Source: Kovacikia minuta CCNUW1 (GTDB taxonomy: Bacteria > Cyanobacteriota > Cyanobacteriia > Leptolyngbyales > Leptolyngbyaceae). From it: a stretch of DNA of 64,000 nucleotides. This document shows positions 32,470-52,611 of this stretch, one piece after another. The first letter of the stretch is position 1. The number at the start of each line of letters is the position of its first letter. Made by a program: the position numbers and the translations under genes. The notes under the pieces were generated by a model. It was not told the DNA's origin and did not search any database. It saw only the letters and a list, made by a program, of their open reading frames with translations. Location of the stretch: the NCBI RefSeq assembly GCF_020091585.1, contig NZ_CP083583.1, positions 682,001-746,000 on the forward strand, written 5' to 3'.

Positions 32470-34234
32470 AACTAATTTCCTTTGAAAGGGTCACTATTTG
32501 CTGTTGGATTATTGGAGTTAGATCAATCCGAGCAGCAAGGGGAAGATTTGGATTCTGAGGATCAGGAGTCCCCATTAATTGCTGCTGCAATTGTAACAGT
32601 GTTCCAATCGAACTAGAAACACTTGAAATCAGACGGAAAGGAACTCCAGTCAGCATTTGTCGAAGTTCCTTTTCGTCTTTTTCGGGAAACAAATAGGTCA
32701 TCGCTTCTAATGACCCAACACCTAATTCCTGATAGTTTCTAACTCCAATACTTAGATCTAGCTGGTCTTTTGGACTATTCTCAAAAACTGGGCCAGTCCA
32801 TCTCCAGTTAACCTTCCTATCTCCATAGGGAGGTAATCCGCTTACTCCAGGAGGAGTGACAAATCCATTTTCTGTATAATCCTGAAAAACAATTTGGTCT
32901 GGAATTGGTTCATTATTTTTTTTGACAAGCTCCTGAAACTTCTTTGCATTTTTATGCGCTGTCAGAAGATAATTTTTGTAAGAAAGGAGAAATGTTCTCT
33001 CTTCAATCAAAATCATCTTTTCAAGCAGCTTTGCAAGCCCGAATGTCCAAAGGGACTTGCATTTATTTAGAGCCGTTGCCGCCACTTTCCCGTAGAGGCT
33101 CTTGTATTCTCCAAAGGTCATTCCTGATCGGGTAGAAAGTGGATCAACTCCTCCTAGACATTCATGAATCCCTTCTCGATATTCCTGGGCAAATCGCCAC
33201 TGATCGCCATTGATTGGATCGGGAAAAATATAGCCAAATCGCTCATCAGGTTGAACCCCTCCAATGATCCGGGCGATTCGGGTTCTTTTTCCGAGGGAAT
33301 CGGTTATTCCAGAGCCGTAGCGATTTCCCCTAACCCAAGGGTCATCTCTTCTCGTTGATGGATGGGCAGTGGAGTAATATCCTTGCTGGCTACTCCAGGA
33401 CGGCCTAGAAGAGGAATCACTTAAAGAGGCATCCTCTAATACCTGCCCCTTTGCTCTGGTCGTTACGAGCGTAGGGCTGCTAAATAGGAAAACATTGTCA
33501 ACCATCCCCGATCTCATTGAGTCCTCTGCTTCAATGGGATCTTTTAACCAGTCAAATTCCCCATTCCCCGGATCACCAGGCTTTAGAGGATAGTTCGGAG
33601 AGACTTCACAAGGAATAAAACCCAAGCTATTGATTTGAATATTTCTTGAAATGGGACCAGCATTGGCCCAATTCAGGGAGTTGAAGGCGTAAGGACTCCC
33701 ATCGGGAAAAAGGGATGGAATATGGTTATAAGTTTCTTCAACAATATACTGAGCGCTGATAATCAGCCTTGTCCATTTTTTTTGATCAGTCGTAGTGTAT
33801 CCAAGAAAATAGTTCTCAGAGTAATCCTCATGGGGATACCTGACAATAATTTGTTGAAGTTCTCTTCCCCCTGACTTGTAATAGGCTTTGTATTCAGTTT
33901 CAGGATCGTTGGGGTCTCCTCCTACAAACCAGTGGATCTCATAATCCTCTGAGCCTGTTGGACGCAAATACCAAAGGATTGATCCTTTTGCGAGGAAAAG
34001 AGTGACGATGCCGGGATAATACAGCTCAAGTCGGTTATATTCAAGAACCTGCTCTATCTTTTTTTTGCGATTTTGATTTGCGTCATCTTGAAGTGGAGTA
34101 AACCTCAATCCCTGTCGTACCATCCACTGAACCATTTGGCTCAAATGAGATGGGACAATCAAAGTTTCGCCAGATGGATATTTCCCATCCCGCTTAACTG
34201 AAGCTTTGATAATGCTTTCTAAAGGTGTTGCCAC
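31928..34234 (-). CDS. Portal protein
   Basis: 768 residues. The N-terminal about 590 residues (VPSHLSQMVQWMVRQGLRFT, FAQEYREGIHECLGGVDPLS, TRSGMTFGEYKSLYG) look like a portal of the podovirus type that forms the ring at the packaging vertex. The last about 180 residues are G/S/P/N-rich and disordered, and they overlap the scaffold-like gene in a different frame. Position between terminase and scaffold supports the call. Confidence 0.7.
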   Translation of the reverse strand: MATPLESIIKASVKRDGKYPSGETLIVPSHLSQMVQWMVRQGLRFTPLQDDANQNRKKKIEQVLEYNRLELYYPGIVTLFLAKGSILWYLRPTGSEDYEIHWFVGGDPNDPETEYKAYYKSGGRELQQIIVRYPHEDYSENYFLGYTTTDQKKWTRLIISAQYIVEETYNHIPSLFPDGSPYAFNSLNWANAGPISRNIQINSLGFIPCEVSPNYPLKPGDPGNGEFDWLKDPIEAEDSMRSGMVDNVFLFSSPTLVTTRAKGQVLEDASLSDSSSRPSWSSQQGYYSTAHPSTRRDDPWVRGNRYGSGITDSLGKRTRIARIIGGVQPDERFGYIFPDPINGDQWRFAQEYREGIHECLGGVDPLSTRSGMTFGEYKSLYGKVAATALNKCKSLWTFGLAKLLEKMILIEERTFLLSYKNYLLTAHKNAKKFQELVKKNNEPIPDQIVFQDYTENGFVTPPGVSGLPPYGDRKVNWRWTGPVFENSPKDQLDLSIGVRNYQELGVGSLEAMTYLFPEKDEKELRQMLTGVPFRLISSVSSSIGTLLQLQQQLMGTPDPQNPNLPLAARIDLTPIIQQQIVTLSKEISYGSEFYSSSSDGSADGERSANGNGSISPVFSTGTGSTNGLSAGNNASGNATGNPGNAPIQRYPVPGTATASGYAAGLYPPVSGIYAPSLPASNPGSGMANGTGSPATVGAEWQSPIPLPGGSVFTPGNASPVRSNTAPLATATGIPQSVPGVPPGIPPIPPDILANPGLLSIYLSSLRPQ

Positions 34235-35297: not shown

Positions 35298-36884
35298 TCA
35301 ACCAAAACTGAGGTTAGGACGAACGCCAAAACCAATAAGTCCTAAAGTGTAGCAATCGCGACAATCGTCTTTACCCATTTCACTCAGCAATTCCTGCTTA
35401 AGTCGTTTCATTTTTCGGTATTTGTTGACTTTCACTTGTTTGCGTTGCATCACCCCTGTAACGCCTCTTAAGCGCTGAATCTTGTCTCCTTTAAGAGTCA
35501 GAGGCACACAAGTTACAGACCAGATACCAAGGGCATTCTGAACGTAATTAATCCAATCTGAACGAAAGCTCACCTGGTAGGATTGAGCCTCGGTAAAGAA
35601 GTTGAGATAGAAATTTGTCTGCTTAATAATGGGCACTTCAGAAGGGTCATCCAAGAACCAGGTAACCTTCCCGGTTCGGTAATTAATCTCGTATTCATTT
35701 TCAGTCTCAAGCATTCCCCAGTCCAGGAGCATGGCGATTAGAACATTGCACTTATCAATGTTGCCTGACCATCTCCCCCGACGCATATCGAGAACCCAAT
35801 ATTCATCTTGCCCATTATTTCTTCTCTTTCCCCACAGGATGAATACGGTATAGTCTGCTTTCTCTTTTAGCGATGCACTGAAGTCGCTACTAATTGCTAA
35901 TGAATCAAAATCTTCAAGGTTAGGGGGATTATCTTCAATCCACCAATCGGAATGGATAATTCCCTGACCTTCTTGGGGGACTTTGTTTTGATACTGAAGA
36001 GAAAAGGCGTTAGGGTCATCTTCTCTAAGAAATTGGAGGTACTGGAGTGAGTGGATCTCAGGACAGTAAGAAGCCTCCTCTCCTGTTTCTTCATCTTCTA
36101 AAATCGCAGACTCTTCAATTACTTCCCAATCTCTTTCTGCGGTGAAAGTTGTTTCATAAATATCATCTGCTCTCATCCGGGTTCCGAGGCAAACAACTCT
36201 TGCACCCTCATAGAGAACAGGTCGAATCACATTTGACCAGTTGTTTGCCATCCGTTCTCGGATAGCCGGATTTTCAATTTGTTCAGGACTCTTAATCAAA
36301 TCATCGAAAACACAGAGATGGGCACGTTTAGAAGCTACAGCCCCTTTCATTCCGGCTGTTGCAAATGTGTACGTCTCACCAAGCCTTGCAAGGTTTGCAT
36401 GGGCTTTATCAATATCCCAGGTTTTGCTTCCCCACTTCTTCCCAGGAAGAATCCAGGGAAAAACTTCTCGGTAACGAGGAGAGATTAAAATATCCTGGAT
36501 CTGCTCAGACTTGAGCATTGCAACTTCAATCGAATAACTGACGTAGAGAGTCTTAAAAGCTAATCGATGGTCTGGTGCAGTCTGAATTCCAATTTGATAA
36601 GCTGTCCACTCTACCTGAAACGTTGACTTAGCAGAACCTCTGGGCGCAAGGATTAAAACATGCTTCCCTCCAATCTCTTTAAGACATTTAGAATCTTCAC
36701 CCGTATTCAAAATTTCAGACCAACGAATATGGTGGGGATAAGATTTATGCCCACAAACATATTCCCGAAACTTTAGAAAATCTACTCTAGCCTCTAAAGC
36801 TTCCGGACTTGCAATAATTTGAGATCGTTTCTCTTTCTCGAACCTGGCTTGAACTTTAGGGAACGAGTAGACATGGATAGGCAC
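35298..36884 (-). CDS. terL: Terminase large subunit
   Basis: 528 residues. Walker A is in LILAPRGSAKST, Walker B in LCVFDDLI, and a motif III-like VVCLGTRMR. The C-terminal nuclease begins with LAISSDFSASLKEKADYT, whose aspartate is the first metal ligand; more acidic residues follow (WVLDMRRGRW, LDDPSE, GKDDCRDC). It packages DNA into the procapsid by ATP hydrolysis and cuts it. It follows the small-subunit candidate by 6 bp. Confidence 0.9.
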   Translation of the reverse strand: MPIHVYSFPKVQARFEKEKRSQIIASPEALEARVDFLKFREYVCGHKSYPHHIRWSEILNTGEDSKCLKEIGGKHVLILAPRGSAKSTFQVEWTAYQIGIQTAPDHRLAFKTLYVSYSIEVAMLKSEQIQDILISPRYREVFPWILPGKKWGSKTWDIDKAHANLARLGETYTFATAGMKGAVASKRAHLCVFDDLIKSPEQIENPAIRERMANNWSNVIRPVLYEGARVVCLGTRMRADDIYETTFTAERDWEVIEESAILEDEETGEEASYCPEIHSLQYLQFLREDDPNAFSLQYQNKVPQEGQGIIHSDWWIEDNPPNLEDFDSLAISSDFSASLKEKADYTVFILWGKRRNNGQDEYWVLDMRRGRWSGNIDKCNVLIAMLLDWGMLETENEYEINYRTGKVTWFLDDPSEVPIIKQTNFYLNFFTEAQSYQVSFRSDWINYVQNALGIWSVTCVPLTLKGDKIQRLRGVTGVMQRKQVKVNKYRKMKRLKQELLSEMGKDDCRDCYTLGLIGFGVRPNLSFG

Positions 36885-37792: not shown

Positions 37793-38161
37793 TTACTTTA
37801 ATGCACTCGACCAGGCAGATCGAGCTAAAGCAACATTAGTTGCCCGTTGACGATTCTGCTGTGCTTCCATTCTGTCCTGACGGAATTGGAACTCATTGTT
37901 TCTCCAACTGGCATTCTGATTACCTTCTCGCTTAAACCTGTCAAAAGATATATCATTTGCTGTCCTGGCATCACTAGCCCAATCAGAAGGAGCAGATTGA
38001 GAGCCTGAACCGGAATTCGATGTAGCCCAAGATCCAGGATTTTGGATCGAAGCAAGCTGAGAGCGCATTGTAGCCATCGTTAACTGATGCTGCATGTCTG
38101 TTTCAGCCTGTCCCTGCAATCCCTGATAACGCCGATCCATACCAACTGAACTTGTGCCCAT
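37793..38161 (-). CDS. Small Q/N/R-rich virion-like protein
   Basis: 122 residues, rich in Q, N, R and S with helical stretches (EFQFRQDRMEAQQNRQRATN). This resembles internal virion or ejection proteins of short-tailed phages in composition only. Family not recognised. Confidence 0.5.
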   Translation of the reverse strand: MGTSSVGMDRRYQGLQGQAETDMQHQLTMATMRSQLASIQNPGSWATSNSGSGSQSAPSDWASDARTANDISFDRFKREGNQNASWRNNEFQFRQDRMEAQQNRQRATNVALARSAWSSALK

Positions 38162-38175
38162 ATACTCTCCTTAAA

Positions 38176-38799
38176 TTAACCCCAGAATCTAGTCGAGGAA
38201 GGATTTGTAGCTGCTCCAAACTTGGCTAACCATCTCTGATTTCCCAGTTGATCGCCAAGCAGGTTTCTCTGCTCCTGTGCCTCCCACATATCCCGCTGTG
38301 AGGGGATTGTTTTTCCGATGGCATCTAAGCCGTATCCACCAGAACCAGACCCATAACCTCCTCCTCCAGCACCTCCACCCCCACCTCCTCCTCTTAAGGC
38401 AAGAGCAGATGTTAACTCTGCAAAGTTCTGCCTGTCCTGGAAATCCCTTTGGTTTGCATACTGGTTATTTGCCTGTCCTGTGGCAAATCGATTAGAAACT
38501 GCCATCTGCTCCAACCCCCTTTCCTGCTCCTGCCTGGGAAGTGTTGAAGCAGAAATCATTCCCCTTCTGAACTCTCCTTCGCTCTGAGCCTGGTTTGCTC
38601 CAAACTCTCTTGTAAATTTACTGGAATCAAGCCAGTTTTGGGTTTGAGCTTGAAGTTGATACCCTCTGGCATCTCTTTGGAACTGGTCTTCTGCTAATCG
38701 GTTGGAAAATCCGGCAATAGAATTTGCATACCGATCGTTTAGCTGATTGAGAGAATCAACCAATTTTAATTGTCCATTCCCGGCAATCCGTCCAGCCAT
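38176..38799 (-). CDS. GRIAG-tagged virion-like protein (N-terminal tag)
   Basis: 207 residues from the ATG at 38799, starting MAGRIAGNGQL. Long helical part (SLNQLNDRYANSIAGFSNRL, NQYANQRDFQDRQNFAELTS), then a glycine-rich spacer of about 25 residues (residues 137-161) and a C-terminal tail. The GRIAG pentapeptide near the N-terminus recurs in seven other proteins nearby. Probably an internal or tail-associated virion protein. Confidence 0.6.
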   Translation of the reverse strand: MAGRIAGNGQLKLVDSLNQLNDRYANSIAGFSNRLAEDQFQRDARGYQLQAQTQNWLDSSKFTREFGANQAQSEGEFRRGMISASTLPRQEQERGLEQMAVSNRFATGQANNQYANQRDFQDRQNFAELTSALALRGGGGGGGAGGGGYGSGSGGYGLDAIGKTIPSQRDMWEAQEQRNLLGDQLGNQRWLAKFGAATNPSSTRFWG

Positions 38800-38838
38800 C
38801 AATTAAACCCTACAATCAAAATCAATATCAACCAAAAA

Positions 38839-39093
38839 TTAAGCCCTTGAAATCCAGTGCCAGGTTCCCGGTTTTCCCAACTCATCATAATAAACAGAAG
38901 AAACTGCCATCGTTTCTCCTAACTCGTCATTTGACTGATCTGGAAATACGGTCAACTGACAGCTTCCATTTTCCATAGGTTTCCCATTGCCATCTCTCCA
39001 GACCCTCGTAACAATTGCTGGTCTAACCTGCCCCTCTGACTTGTGATGACAAAGGACATAATGAACAATTTTTCCTTCAGTTAATCCTTCCAT
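38839..39093 (-). CDS. Small phage protein of unknown function
   Basis: 84 residues: GKIVHYVLCHHKSEGQVRPA, IVTRVWRDGNGKP and CQLTVFPDQSND. This small beta-type family is frequent in phages and I recognise it only as hypothetical. Confidence 0.6.
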   Translation of the reverse strand: MEGLTEGKIVHYVLCHHKSEGQVRPAIVTRVWRDGNGKPMENGSCQLTVFPDQSNDELGETMAVSSVYYDELGKPGTWHWISRA

Positions 39094-39101
39094 ATTTACT
39101 T

Positions 39102-39911
39102 CTATCTAAATGAACTTCTTTGCAAAACATTTACAGCTAGGTTTCTTAGCCCCTCCCTTTCACTGGCATTCCCTTGAAGGAAACTGGCTAATCGCTGAGT
39201 TGAGTCTTGCTGTATTCCAAGCTTTAGTTGTCTGCCGCTGGTCATGTCAGCAATCTGCTTCTGGGTTAAGTTCGTATCACGAATCCCGGTCAGATTTGTG
39301 TTTGCCTGATACCTGGCAACATCAGCCCCAATCTTAGCTGTGTCTACCGCTCCTCGATAGCCCATCTGAGAAGCGAATTTAGAGGCATCAGCTCCAATTC
39401 TGGCTGTTCCCATTGCTCCCTGATAACCCATCAAAGCTGAGTAATTACTTGCTCCAGCTCCTATTTCAGCCTGCCTGACTCCAGCATTTGCCCCTATCTC
39501 GGTCTGTTTAATTCCAGCGTCAGCCCCAATTCTGGCGATCGCTGTCTGTCCTGCAATTTGACGATTCAGTAAATTCTGTTGCCTGCCTAGGTCATAATCG
39601 CCAAACTGCTTAAACTGACCAAAGGTTTTCTGCTCTGCCTGGTTTTTAAGCTGTTGATCTCGACCCGAAAGGACTCGCCTAGCCTGATCTGCCTGGGCTA
39701 ATTCTTCCTGGTTTCTAGGTTGAAACTCTTGATAAGCAGCAGCAGCAGCATCATAATCACCCCGATTAAGGGACTGCTGAAGTCTATCCCCAGAACTAAC
39801 ATATCCAGGTAATCGACGCTGGATTTCATCTAATGCAAGTCCCCCATATTTAAGGGGATTGATATAATCCAACCCCTGCCAGGTAGCTTGTTTTTTAACT
39901 TCGTATGCCAT
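39102..39911 (-). CDS. Virion-like protein with 11-residue repeats
   Basis: 269 residues. Residues 128-215 contain about eight consecutive 11-residue units, for example IGADAGIKQTE, IGANAGVRQAE, IGAGASNYSAL, MGYQGAMGTAR, IGADASKFASQ, MGYRGAVDTAK and IGADVARYQAN. Hendecads give straight or right-handed amphipathic helices and bundles. The N-terminal part is Q/A-rich helical. In this context a channel-forming or ejection protein is plausible. Confidence 0.65.
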   Translation of the reverse strand: MAYEVKKQATWQGLDYINPLKYGGLALDEIQRRLPGYVSSGDRLQQSLNRGDYDAAAAAYQEFQPRNQEELAQADQARRVLSGRDQQLKNQAEQKTFGQFKQFGDYDLGRQQNLLNRQIAGQTAIARIGADAGIKQTEIGANAGVRQAEIGAGASNYSALMGYQGAMGTARIGADASKFASQMGYRGAVDTAKIGADVARYQANTNLTGIRDTNLTQKQIADMTSGRQLKLGIQQDSTQRLASFLQGNASEREGLRNLAVNVLQRSSFR

Positions 39912-39917
39912 TGTTTG

Positions 39918-40163
39918 TTACCTGAATTGCTGACCCATTAAGAGGGCATCATTCCTGGCCTGGGACTCCATCATGTACCTCTTTGTAAATTCATCCAGAT
40001 AAGGAGGAGGTACAGACTGGGAAGCTTGCATAGGAGAGGGTTGCTCTCCTCCTCCTCCCCCCATTGGCAATAACATCGGTGCCATCCACAAAACAGGAGA
40101 GTTTAGGGCACTTCCTACAATTTGCCCTCCCTTTTTCAACACCCCAGCAATCCGTCCTTTCAT
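39918..40163 (-). CDS. GRIAG-tagged small protein (N-terminal tag)
   Basis: 81 residues starting MKGRIAGVLKKGGQIV, then a hydrophobic segment (LNSPVLWMAPMLLPMGGGGG) and a polar tail. The start overlaps the stop of the upstream gene as ATGA, and that upstream protein ends in GRIAGVIR, so two tags are nearly adjacent in the DNA. Probably membrane-active or virion-internal. Confidence 0.6.
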   Translation of the reverse strand: MKGRIAGVLKKGGQIVGSALNSPVLWMAPMLLPMGGGGGEQPSPMQASQSVPPPYLDEFTKRYMMESQARNDALLMGQQFR

Positions 40164-40429
40164 CGTATGACTCCCGCAATCCTACCCGTTTTATTTGCTA
40201 GATTCATTCCCCCCAAAGCATCCCCGGCAAAAGGAACAGCACTTAGAGCATTCATTCCCGCTTCATCCCACCGTCCTCGCATAGCCGAAATTCCAGCGTT
40301 AGCTAAATCTGGAATAGCCCCTAAAACCGGAAACATTCCTCCGACTGAAAGAACACCCTGAAGTGCATCTAAAGCCCCTTCGCGTCTTCTCCTTCTAGAA
40401 AATTCATTGGCATCATCAAATCGATCCAT
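40160..40429 (-). CDS. GRIAG-tagged small protein (C-terminal tag)
   Basis: 89 residues. A basic N-terminus (RRRREGALDALQGVLSVGGM) and small-residue helices lead to NKTGRIAGVIR at the C-terminus. It is coupled to the next gene by ATGA. This is the only copy of the motif at a C-terminus. Confidence 0.6.
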   Translation of the reverse strand: MDRFDDANEFSRRRRREGALDALQGVLSVGGMFPVLGAIPDLANAGISAMRGRWDEAGMNALSAVPFAGDALGGMNLANKTGRIAGVIR

Positions 40430-40431
40430 GA

Positions 40432-40809
40432 CTACATCAGCCCCTTACGCCTTGCAAGCGCTCGCTGAATCAACTCTCCTCCAGCAGGCCCATTCACCAT
40501 CGCAGCCCCTAGTGCCCATAGATTTGGATCAATGTCAAAGGTTCCTTCAGGGGTGAGGGCATTAAACGCCTGAGTCCCCAGGTATCCACCTACAGCAGCA
40601 GCTCCAATACCTAACCCCTGCTGAACTCTAGGAGACTGCATAAATCGAGAATCAAGCAGAGAATTGAGTACCTGTGCTGCTTTTTGCTTTGCTCCCGCCT
40701 GACCAGACATTGTTGGAGGCACCTGTGGGGGAATTCGCATTCCTGCTGCCATTTCCCCTTCAGGGATAGGAAGATGGACTGCTGAATTTGGTCTGTAATT
40801 ACGCATCAT
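40432..40809 (-). CDS. Small virion-like protein
   Basis: 125 residues. A proline-rich N-terminus is followed by small-residue helices (GLGIGAAAVGGYLGTQAFNA, GALGAAMVNGPAGGEL-like region) with glycine-zipper character. No GRIAG motif. It lies between two GRIAG genes and is coupled to both by short spacing. Confidence 0.5.
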   Translation of the reverse strand: MMRNYRPNSAVHLPIPEGEMAAGMRIPPQVPPTMSGQAGAKQKAAQVLNSLLDSRFMQSPRVQQGLGIGAAAVGGYLGTQAFNALTPEGTFDIDPNLWALGAAMVNGPAGGELIQRALARRKGLM

Positions 40810-40811
40810 AT

Positions 40812-41264
40812 CTAGTAACCCCCATACCCCAAAGTACGCTGATAAATCGAGTTGATTTTATATTCGTCTTCCAACTTCTCATTTTCCTTAAGAAGCCTGA
40901 GCCGCTCTTTTCCCAAGACTTCCGGCTCTAGATACCCTTTAGGGATGTCGTTAGGCAAGCCCTGGAAGCCCGAAGAGTTGGGATAATAATTCTGGCGATC
41001 ACCCGAAGGGTAAGCAATATCTGCCTGAGACTGAGCCTGCTGCCTGGGTTTACTGGTCTGATTGAAAACCTGTTCGGTTGCTGTACCTCCATCAAAGGGA
41101 GGATTGAAAAATTTGTTATAAGCCAGGTAGCCTGCTCCAGCAATAGCTCCTATTGCCGGAACCGCAACGATTGGATTTTGACGGGAGTATCGATAAATAG
41201 CCCCCGCTCTCTCAAGCCCACCTGAGACAATTCCTGCAATCCTGCCAGTTCCCCCAGAAATCAT
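40812..41264 (-). CDS. GRIAG-tagged protein (N-terminal tag) with hydrophobic segment
   Basis: 150 residues from the ATG at 41264 (MISGGTGRIAGIVSGGLERA). It is followed by a hydrophobic stretch PIVAVPAIGAIAGAGYLAYN and a polar, helical C-terminus (RLRLLKENEKLEDEYK). The order tag, amphipathic helix, membrane-like segment is shared with the proteins at 39918 and 44755. Confidence 0.6.
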   Translation of the reverse strand: MISGGTGRIAGIVSGGLERAGAIYRYSRQNPIVAVPAIGAIAGAGYLAYNKFFNPPFDGGTATEQVFNQTSKPRQQAQSQADIAYPSGDRQNYYPNSSGFQGLPNDIPKGYLEPEVLGKERLRLLKENEKLEDEYKINSIYQRTLGYGGY

Positions 41265-41326
41265 ATTGCCCCTAAGTTGATGTTGGTCTAATCCTAACAT
41301 CAGACTTAATTTCAGAGAAACTAGTG

Positions 41327-41347
41327 TGATGATAAAAATATTCATTA
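41327..41347 (+). promoter_or_regulatory. Palindromic site 8 (TGATGATA-N5-ATTCATTA)
   Basis: Family member in the divergent gap between the GRIAG gene (41264, minus) and the HTH-like gene (41369, plus), 22 bp from the latter. Confidence 0.55.
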
Positions 41348-41368
41348 TATTCATCAAGTGAGAGATTT

Positions 41369-42328
41369 ATGCCGAAAGTAACTGCCGAATTTCTTGAAAA
41401 AGAAGAATTGCTAATTCAAGAAATCTTAAAGCTAAGACCCGATACGGACAACACAGAAATCCTAAGAATATTAAATAACAAAAGAAAAGAAGAGGGTTTT
41501 GATGAACTCAAGACGATTAAATGGTTGAGACAACGGCTCTATAACAAAGGTATTCATATCTTTGTCAAAGCCAAAGGATCGCAAGTGTATGGGCCTGAAG
41601 AAGTTGAAAAAATAAAATCCCTTGCAGCTCAACTTCCAAGAAGAAGGAAAGGTTGCTATTCACTCAGAGAGATAACAGAGAAGCTTCTTCCCCACTTCCC
41701 AGGCAGAACCTTTGACGGGCTTCAGAATAAAATCAAAGACATTGTTGACATGCCAAGGGTATTGAGTAGAGGGCCAGTTTCTCGAAGAGAAAAAGAATAT
41801 CTTGAGGAAATTTTAGGAGAACTTCCTTTTCTAAAAGCATTCAAGAAACATAATGAATGGAGAAAAGAAAACAATCTTTCTAGACTTACAGAAGAAGGGT
41901 TTAGAAGAAAACTAAAGCTGTTTGGTCTTCACTCAAAAATTGCTAGTAGCACCTACTTCTCCTTGCTGGAAGTGGCATCTGGACTGGGTTGTAGTGATAC
42001 GAAGATCAGAAGATGGTTGAAGGATGATAAATACAGGAATATATTAAAACCGTTCAGGAATGGGCATACAGATGTTAGTCCTATCTATTTTCATAGAGCA
42101 AGACTAAAAGCCTTCTTTGTCGCCTTCCCTTTAGAGATCCAGGAACATCAGCCTGACATGTTATGGTTCGTAGACATTCTCACGGATGGGGTTTACACCC
42201 TAACTGTTGGAGAAGGCTATGAAGGAGATAAAAACTTTGTGCAAGAAATAGAACAGAGAGGATTTACGTTTTTAGGTAAAGAAGAACTCAGCGAACGGAG
42301 AGACCTCTTGCAATCCGAGACTGCCTGA
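41369..42328 (+). CDS. Probable DNA-binding protein with repeated HTH-like segments
   Basis: 319 residues. Several helical units resemble HTH or Myb-like folds (EEVEKIKSLAAQLPRRRKGC then YSLREITEKLLPHF; SLLEVASGLGCSDTKIRRWL). It is free-standing on the plus strand inside the late module, with a palindromic site just upstream. It could be a regulator acting on the palindrome family, or a remnant of a homing-type gene. Its 3' end overlaps the convergent GRIAG gene by 41 bp. Confidence 0.55.
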   Translation: MPKVTAEFLEKEELLIQEILKLRPDTDNTEILRILNNKRKEEGFDELKTIKWLRQRLYNKGIHIFVKAKGSQVYGPEEVEKIKSLAAQLPRRRKGCYSLREITEKLLPHFPGRTFDGLQNKIKDIVDMPRVLSRGPVSRREKEYLEEILGELPFLKAFKKHNEWRKENNLSRLTEEGFRRKLKLFGLHSKIASSTYFSLLEVASGLGCSDTKIRRWLKDDKYRNILKPFRNGHTDVSPIYFHRARLKAFFVAFPLEIQEHQPDMLWFVDILTDGVYTLTVGEGYEGDKNFVQEIEQRGFTFLGKEELSERRDLLQSETA

Positions 42329-43325
42329 CTTGCTCTAGTTTCTTTTTCCACTCAACTGGATCTGGAATTTCTTCTTGAGCGAATGGGCTTCTTTCTGCCC
42401 TATTCCTTAAATAAGCATAGATTCCAGCCCCTACCCCTCCCGTAATTAGTGCTGCCGAAAGGGGAACTTTATAGCCCATTAATTGAGCTTCCGGCTCCCC
42501 CTGGAGATTACTTGAAGTCCCCTTGATTAGCCCCATACTTGAAACCAGTTCAGATGCTTTTGGAACAGATGCGCCAACTAATGCGCCAATTGCAGCTCTC
42601 CTTGCATAGGCTCTACCCGATTGACCTGGCTTAGTTGTGTAAACTCCTGCAACTGCTCCAGTAATTCCTGTGAAAACAGGATTAATTTGTTCGAGTCCGA
42701 ATAGCCCAGGCTTATTGAATCCCTGGTATTCCTTGTATTTTTGATATTGCTCTGGAGATACATCCGGTCTTTCCTGATGAAACTCTTCCCAGGGAAGCAG
42801 CTTTCCCTTTCTACCTACAACGTATCCTGCTAAGGGTTCAAGTAATGGAGCTTCACTTTTGGTCGCATCTTCGGGACTTGCAAAAATAGCACTGTATCCC
42901 CTTGGCCTTCCCCAATCTTGAAGATTTGTCAGATCAACATTACCAGAAGCAACATCCATTGCTGTGACGAGGCCAAGTCCAGATAAAGCCTTTGCATAGG
43001 TTGGAACTTTCCCGGTTTCATCTATGAAACGAGCAGCTTTAGGAATCTGAGAACCAAGACTTTGAGTGATTGCAAGCGGGTGATTGTATCGCCAGTAAGC
43101 TCCTCTAGTCAGGTCTTGGGATACATCGCCTGCAATCCTTCCTCCCCAGTAAGAAAGTCTTTGAGGGATATTTAATCCTTCTATATCTGGATGACCATAA
43201 TTTTTATCAGCATTTGCTGAAGACTGCCAAAACCTAAGAGCTTCCGAGCGATCTTGAGGGGTTGCCCGAAGGAAACCTTTTGTTGCCTGATTTGTAAGTG
43301 ATTTCAGGAAATCTGATTGTGACAT
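42288..43325 (-). CDS. GRIAG-containing large virion-like protein
   Basis: 345 residues. GRIAG lies inside (YWGGRIAGDVSQ, about residue 61). Further on are glycine/alanine-rich hydrophobic helices (FTGITGAVAGVYTT, AAIGALVGASVPKASELVSS, LSAALITGGVGAGIYAYL) and a charged helical C-terminus. It may be an internal virion protein that enters membranes. Function unknown. Confidence 0.6.
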   Translation of the reverse strand: MSQSDFLKSLTNQATKGFLRATPQDRSEALRFWQSSANADKNYGHPDIEGLNIPQRLSYWGGRIAGDVSQDLTRGAYWRYNHPLAITQSLGSQIPKAARFIDETGKVPTYAKALSGLGLVTAMDVASGNVDLTNLQDWGRPRGYSAIFASPEDATKSEAPLLEPLAGYVVGRKGKLLPWEEFHQERPDVSPEQYQKYKEYQGFNKPGLFGLEQINPVFTGITGAVAGVYTTKPGQSGRAYARRAAIGALVGASVPKASELVSSMGLIKGTSSNLQGEPEAQLMGYKVPLSAALITGGVGAGIYAYLRNRAERSPFAQEEIPDPVEWKKKLEQVRQSRIARGLSVR

Positions 43326-43369
43326 AGAATTAGGCAGTAGGTCTTTTGTTCATTATCTCCTAATTCCTT

Positions 43370-44125
43370 ATGCCATTTGCAGACGAATACAGTTACGCAG
43401 ATGGGGGCATAGACCCCAGAACATTGCCCAACGACATGACCGTAGATGGACAAGGGCATTTCCAATTAATTCAACAACAGGAACAGCAAATTCGAGAATT
43501 GCAAGCTTTGTTGAATAGTCAGATCGGCAATCAGCAAAACGGAAATCCCTATCAAGGTGCTTTTCAACTACCTCTTGTAACGCCCCATCAACAGATGCAA
43601 CCAATGGCGTACAGTCCTGTGGTTTCGCAACCCTCCCAACCCCAGGCCAATATTTTCCAACCACAGACGGAAGCCCCTAAAAATCAAGGGATAAACTTTT
43701 GGGAGGAAGAGTTGAAGATTCTTTCAGAAGTAGCTTCTTTGGAATTGACAGGACTGTGTTTGTACACATTTCTCGAAGCTTCAATCTCTGGGATCTCGTC
43801 TCCTCCTATATCAGCCCAGTTTGGTATGAATAGCACTGAAGCCCAGGTAAGTTATCAACGTGTCCTGGGACTGATTCAACGACTTGGACGTGAATTAGAA
43901 GGAGGAATAGCCTGTCCAGTCAATGAAATGCTAAGTCAGGTTCAATCAGGTAAACCAGAAGCCTGCATCGGGCAGGTTCTTGAATACGAAACAAGGATTA
44001 CAGCAGTTTACAGTGATTTACTCAGCCTGGTAAAAGAGAAGGATTACATTGTTGAGTATTTCTGCATAAACAGGCTAACGATTAAATCTCAACAGATTAC
44101 CGAACTAAAAAAACTAACAAAATGA
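43370..44125 (+). CDS. Degenerate ferritin-like protein with Q-rich N-terminus
   Basis: 251 residues. A disordered Q/P-rich N-terminal part (about 1-100) precedes a four-helix domain (LKILSEVASLELTGLCLYTF, SISGISSPPISAQFGMNSTE, VSYQRVLGLIQRLG) that aligns with the next gene. The ExxxH pair expected in helix B is missing, so it is probably not catalytic. It overlaps the next gene, suggesting a paired complex. Function inferred. Confidence 0.55.
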   Translation: MPFADEYSYADGGIDPRTLPNDMTVDGQGHFQLIQQQEQQIRELQALLNSQIGNQQNGNPYQGAFQLPLVTPHQQMQPMAYSPVVSQPSQPQANIFQPQTEAPKNQGINFWEEELKILSEVASLELTGLCLYTFLEASISGISSPPISAQFGMNSTEAQVSYQRVLGLIQRLGRELEGGIACPVNEMLSQVQSGKPEACIGQVLEYETRITAVYSDLLSLVKEKDYIVEYFCINRLTIKSQQITELKKLTK

Positions 44126-44616
44126 TGCAAACCTATTCTTTTGAACAGCAATTTCAACCTCCAACCCAGATGGCACCAGACAGCTATTTAGGCAAAATAA
44201 TCTCACTCCTTCAAGGAATTGCAAGACATGAGATGACAGGGGTTTGTATGTATACCTATTTTCAACTTCTCATAAGTGGAATAAACAAACCTCAAATAAG
44301 TGAAGTGTTTGAGAAGAGTGCAGCAGAGTCTCTAGCCCATTACTCTCAAGCTGTTCAGTTTATGCTCCTCTACGGAGGACGCAGCTATATCCCCTGTAGT
44401 TGTGATCCAATTGTTTATTTGAACGATCCTCAAACCTCAATTTCAGAAGCAATTAGAGCGGCAATCAACCACGAAAAGACTGCTGTTGAAAGTTACAGAA
44501 AGCTGTTCTCTGTTACCAGCGGGAAAGAAACGGAATTAACCAATTGGGCACAAACCCAGGCTCAGGCAGAACTGGAAGACTTGTTAGAATTCCAGCAAAT
44601 TTTAGGGGTTGTCTAG
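44122..44616 (+). CDS. Ferritin-like diiron-domain protein
   Basis: 164 residues. Helices GIARHEMTGVCMYTYFQLLI, KSAAESLAHYSQAVQFMLLY, GGRSYIP, AAINHEKTAVESYRKLF and TQAQAELEDLLEFQQIL follow the ferritin/Dps pattern, with Glu and His at metal-ligand-like places (HE in helix A, E...H in helix B, E in NHEKTAVE, E in QAELED). Length fits the ferritin superfamily. It would bind iron or guard against oxidants. It is encoded opposite to the surrounding late genes. Confidence 0.6.
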   Translation: MMQTYSFEQQFQPPTQMAPDSYLGKIISLLQGIARHEMTGVCMYTYFQLLISGINKPQISEVFEKSAAESLAHYSQAVQFMLLYGGRSYIPCSCDPIVYLNDPQTSISEAIRAAINHEKTAVESYRKLFSVTSGKETELTNWAQTQAQAELEDLLEFQQILGVV

Positions 44617-44618
44617 AG

Positions 44619-44771
44619 GTGAAAAAAGAAAAGCTGATTGAACTCAGGTTTAATCGGTACAACCTGACTGAAGCAATTGTAGGTTTTGAAAGTGGAGAAG
44701 ATTATTTAGCAAGATGCCTGCTCTTTTCAGTAAAAAAGAGATTGAAAGCTGAGGCTAAAAGAAGGTCTTAG
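44619..44771 (+). CDS. Small basic protein of unknown function
   Basis: 50 residues from a GTG at 44619, just after the stop of the ferritin-like gene, with AGAGG close by. The sequence (KKEKLIELRFNRYNLTEAIV) is unrecognised. It overlaps the convergent GRIAG gene by 17 bp. Confidence 0.45.
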   Translation: MKKEKLIELRFNRYNLTEAIVGFESGEDYLARCLLFSVKKRLKAEAKRRS

Positions 44772-45147
44772 CAACATTAAGCAGAGGAAGACTGAACTCA
44801 TCTGCTGCAAGTAAAAGCGGATTAACTTCACCCCCATCTCCCTCATTCCCTCTTGCTACTCGATCTACCCCTTCAGATAAACCTGTTCCCGCATATCCAC
44901 CCAAAATAGATCCGGTCAAACCTGTTAGACTGACCGGAATTTTTTTACCTCGAAAAGAAGGGTTGATCGAAAGGTTGGGGGCATACCTGTGAGCAAGAGC
45001 TTCCCCAGCATAGGCTCCTCCTACCCCTGCTACTGCATTCATTAGTGCCCTCTGATTGTCCTGCCCTGAGAGCCTGCCAATACCGTAGGTCAAACCTGTA
45101 AAGGCTAGGGGAGTGATAATAGATCCCAATCCAGCGATTCTGCCCAT
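44755..45147 (-). CDS. GRIAG-tagged protein (N-terminal tag)
   Basis: 130 residues starting MGRIAGLGSIITPLAF. Glycine-zipper-like hydrophobic helices follow (TYGIGRLSGQDNQRALMNAV, AGVGGAYAGEALAHR, LTGLTGSILGGYAGTGLSEG). This is typical of membrane-inserting virion or lysis-related proteins, but no family is recognised. Confidence 0.6.
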   Translation of the reverse strand: MGRIAGLGSIITPLAFTGLTYGIGRLSGQDNQRALMNAVAGVGGAYAGEALAHRYAPNLSINPSFRGKKIPVSLTGLTGSILGGYAGTGLSEGVDRVARGNEGDGGEVNPLLLAADEFSLPLLNVAKTFF

Positions 45148-45152
45148 AATGG

Positions 45153-47093
45153 TTACTGATAATCAAAAGAGACTGCGTACCGATTCATTAGATGATTGTA
45201 GGTCTGCCAGAAATCAGAGTTTGACAGGGTAGCACTATAGGTCACGATCGCGGCAAGATCAAGGTTGTTTGAATTATCCCCAGGAATTCGGAAGCTGTCC
45301 AAAGTAATATTTGCCAGGGTTGTTGCACCTGTTGAAAGTCTGAAAACAAGAACCTGATTAATCCAAACTTCAAAAGTGGTTGTAGATCCATCGGGAAAAA
45401 CTCTCCATGCTACAACTATCCATTGCTGAGGAATTCTTAATGCATCCAACACTCGATCTACTCCCTTCCATCGAGGAGTAAAAGTAAAATGATTTGGGAA
45501 ACCAAACCCCGTTAAAGAACGAATATATGAGGTGAAAGCTTCTCCGACAGCCGTATAATTTGCTGTTGCTGCTGCTTTTCCGGCAAATATATGCCCGAAG
45601 TTCGGAGGTGAACTATTTAGCTTAAAAACAAGGAAATGATCAAACCCAACGGCATTAACAGTAGATGGAAGAGTACAGGTCATCACATCCCCAGAAGCAA
45701 AACGAATTGCCGGAAAACCATTCAACTGATTGGCTACAAGCAAAGGCTGTGCTGCCCCTGTCGCCTGTACAAAATTATTTAGGGATGCGTCAGAAGATTG
45801 CCAGTTACTAATCAGATTTGAACTCTCAGTAACCCCTACATTCGATTGCCAGTAAGAAAGAAGATTTGTCGTAGCAATTGAACCGGGAGGCGTAAAGGGA
45901 TTCGCATTATTAATAGGTTGCTGAGACGCTATCGCGTAGTGATAATTCGTATTACCAACCGTTGAAGGTGCTGCGGTACTAGAACGAAGACACCCCCTTG
46001 AACCAGTCGTAGGGCCAGCATTTGCAACTCCAGTGCTAGTTAATGCATAGGTGAAAAGAAAAGGAATTCCTCCACTCGAATCAATCTCTAACTGATTTCC
46101 ACTAATCCTAAAACCACTCAGAGTCAAAGCTATTCTTTTCTCATCGTAGATAATAAAACCATAACTTCCTGGATCGGACACCAAAGATGTATCCAAAACC
46201 AAAGACCCGTTATCTGGAACTGAATAAGTAATTACTGTAGTATAAATTCCTGTACCCGGATTCCCGGAAGCCTGGATTGTTACTGGTTTCAATGGAGAGA
46301 AAATATTACCAGTAAGTGTTCTATACATTGCATAAGCATAGTATTCTCCCAGCCTCAACAGTGCATTGGCTGTGGAGTGAAGTCCATCGGCATGGTCAAG
46401 CATGTATTTTGAGCAAACTAGAATTACATTGCTTGGATCAGCATAATGAGCTTTTACCTGTGCATACAAAGAAAGAGGAGTAAATCCACCTCCACCCGTA
46501 CTCGAATGATTATGGGAATTGACCTGACAGAGAAATAATTTTCCTGAAGGGTTAATGTCTGCTCTTAAGTCAGAAAGCAATAACGCAGGAAATAAATCGT
46601 AAACAGATGTTTTTGTATCCGTCTCTCCATGAATTAGACAAAATGCATACTCCTGATAGATTCCAACTGGGGCTGCATTCGCACTAATGGCAGTTGTGTA
46701 AAGAAGTTGGTTCGCATAGGAACTTGATGAGCCTCCTTTTCTGATACTTGTATAAGAAGCTCCTGAAACACCAACATTTGAAAAAATAAATCGGGCAGAC
46801 TGCCCATAAAGTTGATAAAGAAGTTTTGTCGCTGACAAGGCAATGGTTTGCCTCTCTGAAACGGACGTAGCATTCAAAGGAACTAAAGGAGCAGAGACAG
46901 GGGGTTGAGCATAAGTGCCCCCTGGAAGCATGTAGCCCCCATCAATCTGCCCAGTGGTTAGCAATGCGCCCGAACTGATCCCAATCGAAAGACTCTGACC
47001 TGTTATAGCAATCCTTCTAAGTGGAGGAAACCCACCTCCCCCTCCTCCTGGGGAAAGAAAAGGAATATGAGAAAAAATACTAATTCCAGGCAT
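45153..47093 (-). CDS. Tail-spike-like protein: SGNH esterase plus lectin-like domain
   Basis: 646 residues from the ATG at 47093. The N-terminal domain has the SGNH block I IAITGQSLSIG (Ser34), an HGETD block and DGLHST as the Asp-His pair, as in sialate O-acetylesterase-like enzymes that remove acetyl groups from surface sugars. The C-terminal about 230 residues (LLSYWQSNVGVTESSNLISN to YAVSFDYQ) look like a concanavalin/LamG-type domain for sugar binding. In a tail-gene cluster this is likely the host-recognition depolymerase. It lacks an obvious beta-helix. Confidence 0.75.
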   Translation of the reverse strand: MPGISIFSHIPFLSPGGGGGGFPPLRRIAITGQSLSIGISSGALLTTGQIDGGYMLPGGTYAQPPVSAPLVPLNATSVSERQTIALSATKLLYQLYGQSARFIFSNVGVSGASYTSIRKGGSSSSYANQLLYTTAISANAAPVGIYQEYAFCLIHGETDTKTSVYDLFPALLLSDLRADINPSGKLFLCQVNSHNHSSTGGGGFTPLSLYAQVKAHYADPSNVILVCSKYMLDHADGLHSTANALLRLGEYYAYAMYRTLTGNIFSPLKPVTIQASGNPGTGIYTTVITYSVPDNGSLVLDTSLVSDPGSYGFIIYDEKRIALTLSGFRISGNQLEIDSSGGIPFLFTYALTSTGVANAGPTTGSRGCLRSSTAAPSTVGNTNYHYAIASQQPINNANPFTPPGSIATTNLLSYWQSNVGVTESSNLISNWQSSDASLNNFVQATGAAQPLLVANQLNGFPAIRFASGDVMTCTLPSTVNAVGFDHFLVFKLNSSPPNFGHIFAGKAAATANYTAVGEAFTSYIRSLTGFGFPNHFTFTPRWKGVDRVLDALRIPQQWIVVAWRVFPDGSTTTFEVWINQVLVFRLSTGATTLANITLDSFRIPGDNSNNLDLAAIVTYSATLSNSDFWQTYNHLMNRYAVSFDYQ

Positions 47094-47095
47094 AA

Positions 47096-47389
47096 CTAAA
47101 CAGACAAGTATTGATTGGGAACCCGATAAGCAACTAACGTTCCGGCTGAAAGAGTTAGCCCCGTAGAGATACACCCTATTCCAGCTTTTGAAGTTAGAGT
47201 TAAACTTGCTGCCCCAACAATCTTCCCAGTAATAGAAGAAAATGTAACATCAGTTGATCCGGCATTGTAAAGGTAATACCAGGTAAACCCTGCTGGAGGA
47301 GTTTGAGGAGATGTACCTGTTAGAACATCTACGCCAAAAAATCCTGTCGAGGCTTCTAAAACATCAAATTGACCACCAATGTAAGCCAT
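47096..47389 (-). CDS. Small phage structural protein
   Basis: 97 residues, beta-rich (GFTWYYLYNAGSTDVTFSSI, TSKAGIGCISTGLTLSAGTL). Common composition of phage tail or fibre accessory proteins. It sits between the spike gene and the GRIAG genes. Confidence 0.6.
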   Translation of the reverse strand: MAYIGGQFDVLEASTGFFGVDVLTGTSPQTPPAGFTWYYLYNAGSTDVTFSSITGKIVGAASLTLTSKAGIGCISTGLTLSAGTLVAYRVPNQYLSV

Positions 47390-47401
47390 ACTATTTACTC
47401 T

Positions 47402-47644
47402 TTATTGAGGAGGATTAATATAATTACTCGGATAATCAAAAATCTGAGCAGAAACCGGATAAGTGCTGGAAGAATAGTAATGAGGTGACTGGATCCGATT
47501 GCTTGGTGAAATTGGTTGAATGGATTTCCCAGAAACCTTTTGATCAATTCCTTGAAACATGGACAGAAAATTATCCAGGGGAACTTCTGTATCAAGATCC
47601 ACTGTCAACTTCCCCTTAACTTTTATTCCTGCAATTCTTCCCAT
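47402..47644 (-). CDS. GRIAG-tagged small protein (N-terminal tag)
   Basis: 80 residues from the ATG at 47644 (MGRIAGIKVKGKLTVDLDTE), with AGGA upstream. The C-terminal part is Y/P/S-rich and probably disordered. It is coupled to the upstream GRIAG gene. Confidence 0.6.
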   Translation of the reverse strand: MGRIAGIKVKGKLTVDLDTEVPLDNFLSMFQGIDQKVSGKSIQPISPSNRIQSPHYYSSSTYPVSAQIFDYPSNYINPPQ

Positions 47645-47646
47645 CT

Positions 47647-47979
47647 TCAATTCCTGTTCAATTCTGGAATTAAATCAAACGCTTTGTCTTGCCCTCCATT
47701 CCCTCCCATCAAAAGAGCAGCAATATATCTGGCATCCGGGCCACCATTCTCATAGGTTTTTAGTTGCTGAGGATCAGAGTCTCCGTAATATCTGGCATGA
47801 AAAGAAGAGATATTTCGCCATTGAGACTCAGATAAAGACTCTCCCTGTGCAATTAATTGTGCAGTCTCAAGCCTCCTCTTAGACTGCCCTCGCCCATACT
47901 CCTGCTGAAGCTGCAATCCCTGCCTTGCTGAGATTTGCATTTGCTTTGTCGGTGGAATTCCTGCAATGCGTCCAACCAT
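47647..47979 (-). CDS. GRIAG-tagged small protein (N-terminal tag)
   Basis: 110 residues from the ATG at 47979 (MVGRIAGIPPTKQMQISARQ). A basic Q-rich helix (GLQLQQEYGRGQSKRRLETA) and ARYIAALLMGGNGGQDKAFD follow. The start codon overlaps the stop of the fibre-like gene (TGATG). Confidence 0.6.
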   Translation of the reverse strand: MVGRIAGIPPTKQMQISARQGLQLQQEYGRGQSKRRLETAQLIAQGESLSESQWRNISSFHARYYGDSDPQQLKTYENGGPDARYIAALLMGGNGGQDKAFDLIPELNRN

Positions 47980-51318: not shown

Positions 51319-51537
51319 GACTTATACCGATTCAGCCCAAATCCTTAGAGTCGTGCCCTGATAAGAGTTTCAGTTATATCAACTTTACTTGATTTAATGC
51401 TGAATCTAGTCCACATCTCCCTTCTGACTCATAAATTCTCTAAATAGCCTAAAAATCCCCTTTTTAGTCGAAATCAGGGAATCCGGGAATTTTTTGAAGC
51501 CAGTAAATTGACCCTACTTCTACCCCCAGCAAATGAA

Positions 51538-51580
51538 GAGAGACATCGTTCCCCCTCAGCTTGTTTTTGTTCTGGACAAA
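51538..51580 (+). repeat. Left 43-bp repeat flanking the HNH gene
   Basis: Begins GAGAGACATCGT and ends TTCTGGACAAA. The same length and same ends recur at 52617-52659, on the other side of the HNH gene, with a diverged middle. Confidence 0.65.
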
Positions 51581-51586
51581 CTGCTA

Positions 51587-51607
51587 TGATGAATAAAATA
51601 CTCATCA
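51587..51607 (+). promoter_or_regulatory. Palindromic site 10 (TGATGAAT-N5-ACTCATCA)
   Basis: Family member ending 6 bp before the ATG at 51613 of the HNH gene. It contains the alternative ATG at 51589. Confidence 0.55.
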
Positions 51608-51612
51608 AAAAT

Positions 51613-52611
51613 ATGGAATTTGAACAGGAGCTTTACAAGATTGGCAGCCTTTGTTTTAGGGGGCATGAGTGGGGTAGTACTGGGCTGAGTTTAAGAGCGA
51701 AGAAGGGTAGCTCGGACTGTGTCGAATGTAGAAAATTTAGAACCAAAAAATCGAAGTCTTTGGCTTTAGCAGAGAAACGAGTTTTAGCCCTTGAAAGGAA
51801 ACAGGCTTTAGAAAGTTTAGAAATTTCACTTGGAATAGATAGAACTCGCTATTATTTGGGTTCTATAGGAGTCTGTGGGCATGAGTGGATGAATTCTGGT
51901 TACACCCTAAGAAGGAAGGGTGACGCTCCTCGAAAAGGCGCAACTTGTATTGTCTGTGCATGTATCCAAAATTCAAGTCCCTTGCTTGAAGCAGATAGAC
52001 TCTATTGGTTTGTTAGGTCAAAAGATCAGTTGATTCAAGATACCTGCCGTGAGTTTCCTGAGTTGAACACAGATTTTGTTTTTTTGGGAAACATTTGTAG
52101 AAATGGGCATGTCTGGAATGAGACTGGTAGAAGTCTTCGTTACACCCATCGTGCAAATAGTCCATGCGTTTCCTGTTCTGAAGACTTGAATGAAAGAAAC
52201 AGGGACTCTAAAAGGGAAAGAGCTAGGGAGCGTTATTGGATGCCAGGAGGAAAAGAGTCTTATTATCGGTCTGCTTATAGAAGGTTGGCTCTTAAAAATG
52301 GCGGATCAAGTTCAGGGTTAAATAAAAGCCAGCGAGAATTACTAAAAATGATTCTTAAAGGAGCTTGCGCTTATTGTCGAAATATTCCTTTGCCAGAAGA
52401 ACTTGAATTGGATCATGTTATCCCTTTGAGCCAGGGGGGTGATGACACGCCTGAAAACCTCCTGCCCTGCTGTCTTTCATGCAATCGTTCAAAAAAGGAT
52501 AAAGATTTCCTTTCTTGGTATACAATTCAACCTTTTTATTCTAAAGCTGGAATTTCCGAAATTTTTCAAATCCTTGGAATCCCTGTACCTGAACAGTTTT
52601 GGGTCTCCTGA
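51613..52611 (+). CDS. HNH endonuclease with three zinc-type modules
   Basis: 332 residues from the ATG at 51613; upstream in-frame ATGs at 51586 and 51589 are alternatives. Three related modules of pattern G..C..GH.W..TG.SLR...C..C are visible: CFRGHEWGSTGLSLR with CVEC, VCGHEWMNSGYTLR with CIVC, and CRNGHVWNETGRSLR with CVSC. The HNH nuclease follows: CAYCRN, LDHVIPLSQGGDD and LLPCCLSCNRSKKD. The same module occurs once in the HNH protein at 22161, so it is probably the DNA-reading part. 43-bp repeats flank the gene. Confidence 0.88.
   Translation: MEFEQELYKIGSLCFRGHEWGSTGLSLRAKKGSSDCVECRKFRTKKSKSLALAEKRVLALERKQALESLEISLGIDRTRYYLGSIGVCGHEWMNSGYTLRRKGDAPRKGATCIVCACIQNSSPLLEADRLYWFVRSKDQLIQDTCREFPELNTDFVFLGNICRNGHVWNETGRSLRYTHRANSPCVSCSEDLNERNRDSKRERARERYWMPGGKESYYRSAYRRLALKNGGSSSGLNKSQRELLKMILKGACAYCRNIPLPEELELDHVIPLSQGGDDTPENLLPCCLSCNRSKKDKDFLSWYTIQPFYSKAGISEIFQILGIPVPEQFWVS

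Follow-up and report, generated by a model that had tools for sequence, protein, structure and literature searches.

The GRIAG peptide in the late genes of the window

The window analyzed here is a 64,000-nucleotide stretch of Kovacikia minuta CCNUW1 (positions 682,001 to 746,000 of contig NZ_CP083583.1), taken from a cyanobacterial host assembly of three contigs and 8.56 Mb, and it carries a phage structural module in which several otherwise unlike small proteins share the peptide Gly-Arg-Ile-Ala-Gly (GRIAG). Our analysis identified eight in-frame copies of this peptide, all on the minus strand and all inside 9.2 kb (38779-47973), as a preliminary description of this DNA had claimed. That description counted eight tags; seven of them stand as independent tags, and the eighth, inside the protein encoded at 42288-43325, is probably a structural lookalike. 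The eight proteins are:

38176-38799, minus strand: Q-rich late protein of 208 amino acids, tag at residue 3 (MAGRIAG), motif at 38779-38793.
39918-40163, minus strand: hydrophobic protein of 81 amino acids, N-terminal tag (MKGRIAGVLKK), motif at 40143-40157.
40160-40429, minus strand: hydrophobic protein of 89 amino acids, C-terminal tag (TGRIAGVIR, then the stop codon) three residues from the C-terminus, motif at 40172-40186.
40812-41264, minus strand: protein of 150 amino acids with a hydrophobic segment, N-terminal tag (MISGGTGRIAG), motif at 41232-41246.
42288-43325, minus strand: lineage-wide structural-module protein of 345 amino acids, internal GRIAG at 43128-43142.
44755-45147, minus strand: Gly-rich hydrophobic protein of 130 amino acids, tag at residue 2 (MGRIAG), motif at 45130-45144.
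47402-47644, minus strand: protein of 80 amino acids, tag at residue 2 (MGRIAGIKVKG), motif at 47627-47641.
47647-47979, minus strand: protein of 110 amino acids, N-terminal tag (MVGRIAG), motif at 47959-47973.

The tag is confined to late genes and can sit at either terminus: with start codons picked by eye and by the logic of the open reading frames, six of the seven tags are N-terminal, mostly at residues 2-8, and the remaining one is C-terminal. All eight proteins are net basic, whereas the large structural proteins of the window are mostly acidic. The tagged proteins gave no significant family match in Pfam or PHROGs.

The copies are spelled differently at the DNA level. Arg is encoded by CGG, AGG, AGA or CGC and Ala by GCC, GCT, GCG or GCA, as noted previously, and the eight encoding 15-mers are all distinct. 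DNA identity among the copies is 78% over the 15 bases versus 28-29% over the 45 bases on each side. Since the spellings differ and the flanks are unrelated, the shared unit is five residues and not a stretch of DNA, which rules out a DNA repeat as the source. Chance and composition are likewise ruled out: across 32 phage proteins (7263 amino acids), shuffling gave a mean of 0.018 copies and a maximum of 2 in 20,000, so that the background rate, which the preliminary description had raised as a possible cause of eight copies in one module, lies far below the count. In an unbiased ranking of pentamers common to different window proteins, GRIAG came first (8), followed by GGGGG (4). A degenerate DNA pattern for GRIAG, which admits Ser codons too, matched 44 times in the 8.56 Mb genome, with 8 of these matches in the tagged module.

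The internal copy at 42288-43325 differs in kind. In an alignment of 46 homologues of this protein, the Arg of the motif (R63) and the following Asp are at least 90% conserved and the other motif positions are not, and the homologous segment is conserved far beyond the tagged phages. An AlphaFold model (predicted local distance difference test score, pLDDT, of 83) places GRIAG inside a helix (residues 53-69) of a folded domain; the fold has no match in the PDB. Because the site is conserved lineage-wide and lies within a helix, we did not count this copy as a tag, and it is probably an ancestral lookalike, as judged from the alignment and the model.

The Q-rich protein at 38176-38799 lies next to two further Q-rich proteins, and all three (39102-39911, 38176-38802 and 37793-38161) end in short conserved C-termini (RSSF[RK], [RF]xW[GSR] and W[SA]SAL[KR]) that are also found in their homologues in contigs L010, L101, L102, L107 and L110 (introduced below). 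These C-termini are possibly further terminal peptides of the same sort.

Conservation and covariation of the tag among related phages

Tagged relatives were found in six records: G390 (contig L010), G388 (L101 and L107), G389 (L102), G639 (L110), G637 (L111, L271 and L272) and G638 (L189). Several of these are contig fragments (L110, for one, stops short of its capsid gene), so the tag counts per phage are minima. The nearest relative is IMG/VR contig L010, with a terminase 73% and a capsid protein 89% identical to those of the window. Seven orthologues, one of them from the 42288 family, could be matched between the two phages; each retains the peptide, and all 35 residues are identical, with 14 of the 35 codons silently changed and the adjoining ten residues 29% identical. 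This comparison indicates that the tag is under purifying selection at the protein level over precisely five residues, and the silent changes, together with the unrelated flanks, bear out the preliminary claim that selection acts on the peptide. L010 also encodes a tagged protein (MPGRIAGKYN) for which no counterpart was seen in the window.

The individual families show the same persistence. The orthologue of 38176-38799 (L010:8135-8782) retains GRIAG, that of 44755-45147 (L010:1670-2068) begins MGRIAG, and those of 47402-47644 read MAGRIAG (L010:219-491) and NERVAGL (L107:13289-13627). The orthologues of 39918-40163 carry GRIAG (L010 and L111), PRIAG (L102), GRVAG (L107) and GRLAG (L110), and those of 40812-41264 carry GRIAG (L010 and L111) and GKVAG (L107).

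The 40160-40429 family is the most informative as to position. The window and L010 members bear the tag at the C-terminus, and those from G389 (MGRIAG, L102), G388 (MEDRVAG, L107), G639 (MDGGRLAG, L110) and G637 (KGRIAG, L111) bear it at the N-terminus; the G389 member also keeps a decayed GRMAG at its C-terminus. A tag able to switch ends among orthologues suggests a linear motif and not a part of the fold. Members of this family (40160-40429, L102:68-418, L110:2555-2914 and L111:12978-13337) also share a hydrophobic segment, PGLGAIPDLxNAxxxxxRGxxxxAxxxxxxxIPxxGD, which resembles the translocation segment that precedes some polymorphic toxin domains; a Pfam search gave no significant match.

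The central letter of the tag varies by phage. Of the seven tagged phages, five have I (in up to ten proteins each), one has V and one has L. Five G639 proteins carry GRLAG, with one GRMAG besides (the 42288 homologue of that phage not counted), G388 has RVAG or KVAG at five places in the same proteins, and G637 has RIAG at ten places, several of them in proteins absent from the window. GRIAG tops the list of shared pentamers for the window and for the phages to which L010 and L111 belong; for L110 that place goes to GRLAG. When letters were permuted among phages in the hand-assembled tag table for these seven phages, none of 200,000 permutations over all tags reached the observed agreement, and 9 of 100,000 did so when the shuffling stayed inside orthologue groups. 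A portal tree unites the seven tagged phages in a single clade (100/100), within which the L-phage clusters with G389, an I-phage (93/95), and is nested inside the I-phages. The letter thus probably went from I to L in several unrelated proteins on a single branch, and a single shared recognizer is the simplest cause of unrelated proteins changing letter together.

Three further tagged proteins of G637 adjoin portal and fiber genes, and two proteins encoded at L272:1118-1309 and 1311-1502 are clear tagged paralogues. A second peptide, PRGY[SA], is common to four tagged proteins of G637 and G638 (L271:3348-3635, L272:1118-1309, L272:1311-1502 and L189:5677-5955) and recurs in the 42288 family as GRP[RK]GYS.

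The tag sequence, its placement at either end, the number of its carriers and its per-phage dialect appear to be novel; GRIAG, GRLAG, LAGKY and IAGKY gave no match in the open-access literature, which misses most subscription journals. The concerted I/V/L switch would offer a clean natural case of a linear motif and a presumed receptor co-evolving across many unrelated proteins.

Phage lineage and genomic setting

All the tagged genes of the window lie inside a structural module together with terminase, portal and capsid genes:

35298-36884, minus strand: terminase large subunit (phrog_38, E = 6.4e-64), the protein 73% identical in L010.
31928-34234, minus strand: probable portal (phrog_20475, E = 3.9e-133), 34% identical to that of S-EIV1 and used for the phage tree.
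31273-32469, minus strand: Q-rich protein of 398 amino acids between the portal and capsid genes, described from gene order and composition, with no family match.
29945-31132, minus strand: major capsid protein with an HK97-type fold (phrog_1357, major head protein, E = 1.4e-18).

Among isolates, the closest is Synechococcus phage S-EIV1 (KJ410740), whose terminase, portal and capsid proteins are 37%, 34% and 46% identical. Homologous terminase, portal, capsid and 42288-type proteins place the window phage in the cyanophage S-EIV1 lineage. This lineage is widespread in waters; in one marine survey, 3.3% of cyanophage content belonged to the group that holds S-EIV1 (PMC5332604).

To the left of the phage module lie host-like metabolic genes and two inverted transposase copies, which is why the phage region looks like a prophage or a phage-derived island. 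The transposases are identical proteins of 442 amino acids (7254-8582, minus strand, and 14582-15910, plus strand) flanking the host metabolic genes. A ferritin-like gene pair (43370-44125 and 44122-44616, plus strand) stands on the opposite strand between the tagged genes, with counterparts preserved at L010:2629-3504 and L107:14900-15709; in S-EIV1 a DNA-binding ferritin-like gene is annotated. The phage module is interrupted by HNH homing-endonuclease-like genes (22161-22991, 29051-29869 and 51508-52611, plus strand), several of which occur in L010 too. The terminase frames of L101 (901 amino acids) and S-EIV1 (846) are much longer than that of the window (528), with the best homology only past residue 530-560, as an intein or an insertion would give.

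The peptide itself is rare in the wider lineage. About 80 S-EIV1-like portal loci gave 6 late-strand matches to GRIAG in 1 Mb, which rules out a strong GRIAG tag throughout the lineage, and S-EIV1 has no GR[IVL]AG. A related pattern, [LIVM]AG[KR][YF], occurs in 26 protein clusters of these loci, 18 of them within 12 residues of an end, against permutation means of 3.4 clusters and 0.7 near an end (120 permutations). In S-EIV1 itself, AGKY lies close to the N-terminus in two late proteins and internally in another. Composition shuffles (16 clusters versus 13) and a per-locus k-mer ranking gave no support for AGKY as a tag of the same strength as GRIAG. Because these two other controls failed to single it out, we grade [LIV]AG[KR][YF] in the S-EIV1 clade as a related, supportive but weaker terminal signal.

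A probable docking tag, its rivals and known targeting systems

It is very probable that GRIAG is a linear tag with one shared recognizer, and likely that this recognizer is phage-encoded and virion-related. The full reading that we favor, for which the balance tips modestly in its favor, is that GRIAG is a linear docking tag bound by a phage-encoded partner in the head, which loads the tagged proteins into the particle. Three elements of this reading are inferred: the existence of a single partner, its identity as a head protein, and packaging as the purpose of the tag. At least seven late proteins, all small and net basic, would display G-R-(I/V/L)-A-G on a flexible end, to be bound by a single phage-encoded component of the growing head. 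The HK97-type capsid protein, at its inner face, would be the likeliest partner, or else the adjacent scaffold-like Q-rich protein; 29945-31132 and 31273-32469, the latter at the usual scaffold position, are thus the candidates. Through this binding the tagged proteins would be collected in the particle, where they would serve as ejection or internal proteins that accompany the DNA on delivery. Gene context makes their packaging into the virion plausible; for loading into the capsid interior in particular, we consider the chances evenly split. Of the three options in the preliminary description, the concerted letter and the end-switching strongly favor a docking or targeting peptide for one partner, and the protease site is disfavored by tags at residues 2-8 and by the lack of an S78 protease in the tagged records.

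Several observations weigh against this reading. In the nearest relative, an orthologue of 47647-47979 (L108:10952) reads GCIAR (TGCIARVPP) and has lost the tag; the preliminary description had held that orthologues lacking the motif in relatives would speak against it, and the other seven orthologues paired in that relative keep the peptide. Single M variants occur in G389 and G639. The 42288 homologue of G637 reads GRLAG while the other tags of that phage read RIAG, which breaks the dialect unless this copy is a lookalike. I, V and L are similar, which makes a partner specific enough to force a concerted change a supposition in its own right. The capsid model is of low confidence (mean pLDDT of 58), and a docking pocket was not identified on it; in Foldseek it matched cyanophage capsids (E = 1.3e-05) and, weakly, encapsulin 8wol (E = 4.7e-03). 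Finally, the more distant relatives G276, G283, G640 and the L116 group have no tag, so the partner's function cannot depend on the tag across the whole lineage.

The alternative that survives best, although we consider it rather unlikely, is a docking tag for another partner, such as the portal or tail vertex, a fiber-assembly factor or a non-virion assembly chaperone that gathers small proteins. In the window, the tagged genes 47402-47644 and 47647-47979 stand among fiber genes; tagged proteins of G637 and G638 are encoded beside portal and fiber genes. However, gene neighborhood fails to separate this possibility from capsid loading, and the hydrophobic, basic character of several tagged proteins is what one would expect if they were internal proteins that are ejected.

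Less likely still is a processing site, at which a head-maturation protease would cut GRxAG in the manner of T4 gp21, possibly combined with targeting. Terminal tag and cleavage can coexist, since in T4 the prohead protease takes off the capsid targeting sequences (PMC9026906), and a full ClpP gene (L277, G637:C1:68770-69282) directly follows the structural genes of G637. Nevertheless, a cut at residues 2-8 would free almost nothing, and one tag lies three residues from the C-terminus. An S78 prohead protease was not found in any tagged record, although the positive controls worked (in the S77 protease search the positive control was silent), and of the four records searched only G637 has ClpP, which is absent from G388, G390 and S-EIV1. 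The almost terminal tags, the lack of an S78 protease and the restriction of ClpP to one record make a protease site less likely.

It is also conceivable, at a very low probability, that the small proteins mimic the 42288 family, copying its GRxxxD helix to compete for or join the same binding site. That family has an R-[ILV]-x-x-D site in which R and D are conserved as described above throughout the lineage, and the PRGY[SA] peptide of the G637 and G638 tagged proteins matches its GRP[RK]GYS. On the other hand, in the model the segment lies in a helix within a folded domain, the letter agreement fails in G637, and the 42288 homologue of G388 bears an extra, separate ARVAG at its C-terminus. 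Common ancestry, in which the tagged proteins would be old paralogues or recombined ends with only the end still recognizable, is the least credible, since the tagged paralogue pair of G637 and a weak blastp similarity of 44755-45147 to 42288-43325 (E 0.02-0.05) are set against DNA that is unrelated right up to the five codons, families that differ in length and composition, a tag that changes ends within one family and a letter that switched jointly after the families had diverged.

Returning to the docking tag, a tentative and rather speculative extension is a per-phage dialect code for head filling, under which any small protein gaining the current tag at either end would be taken up. The dialects would be GRIAG, GRVAG and GRLAG, or [LIV]AG[KR][YF] in the wider clade, with tag and receptor drifting together; if true, virion-interior proteins could be listed from sequence alone. 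Most structural proteins of the S-EIV1 lineage have no assigned function, and a shared tag would define a functional class from sequence. If the tag is read by one partner, co-variation would point to that assembly partner, and the tag would provide a small handle by which proteins of choice could be loaded into phage particles.

Among known systems, the tag resembles established targeting peptides in kind. S-EIV1 belongs to the same lineage as the window phage but lacks GR[IVL]AG, and only the weaker [LIV]AG[KR][YF] recurs in its clade. Family 1 encapsulin targeting peptides combine hydrophobic residues spaced by Gly with a basic residue and dock cargo on the inner face of an HK97-fold shell; they are usually C-terminal, with the consensus DGSLGIGSLKG and native examples such as PLTVGSLRRGG (PMC7925596). 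The phage likewise encodes an HK97-fold shell protein nearby (phrog_1357), but its tag is shorter, mostly N-terminal (six of seven), without the GSL element and located in a phage structural module. The capsid targeting sequence of T4 is an N-terminal peptide of divergent small basic head proteins, is reported to suffice for loading foreign proteins and has been proposed as a general cargo-swapping route in T4-like phages (PMC9026906). The GRIAG tag is likewise a short terminal peptide common to otherwise divergent late proteins and may work in a similar way, with no claim of homology; the T4 sequence is a propeptide of 10-19 residues cut by gp21, whereas the tag has five residues and occurs at either end, and no matching protease was found. 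Because not all the defining features of either class were seen, we do not class the tag as a T4 capsid targeting sequence or as an encapsulin peptide. A further precedent is found in the ejection proteins gp7, gp16 and gp20 of P22, late proteins that are recruited into the procapsid, gp7 and gp20 through their N-terminal portions via the scaffolding protein (PMC8402733).

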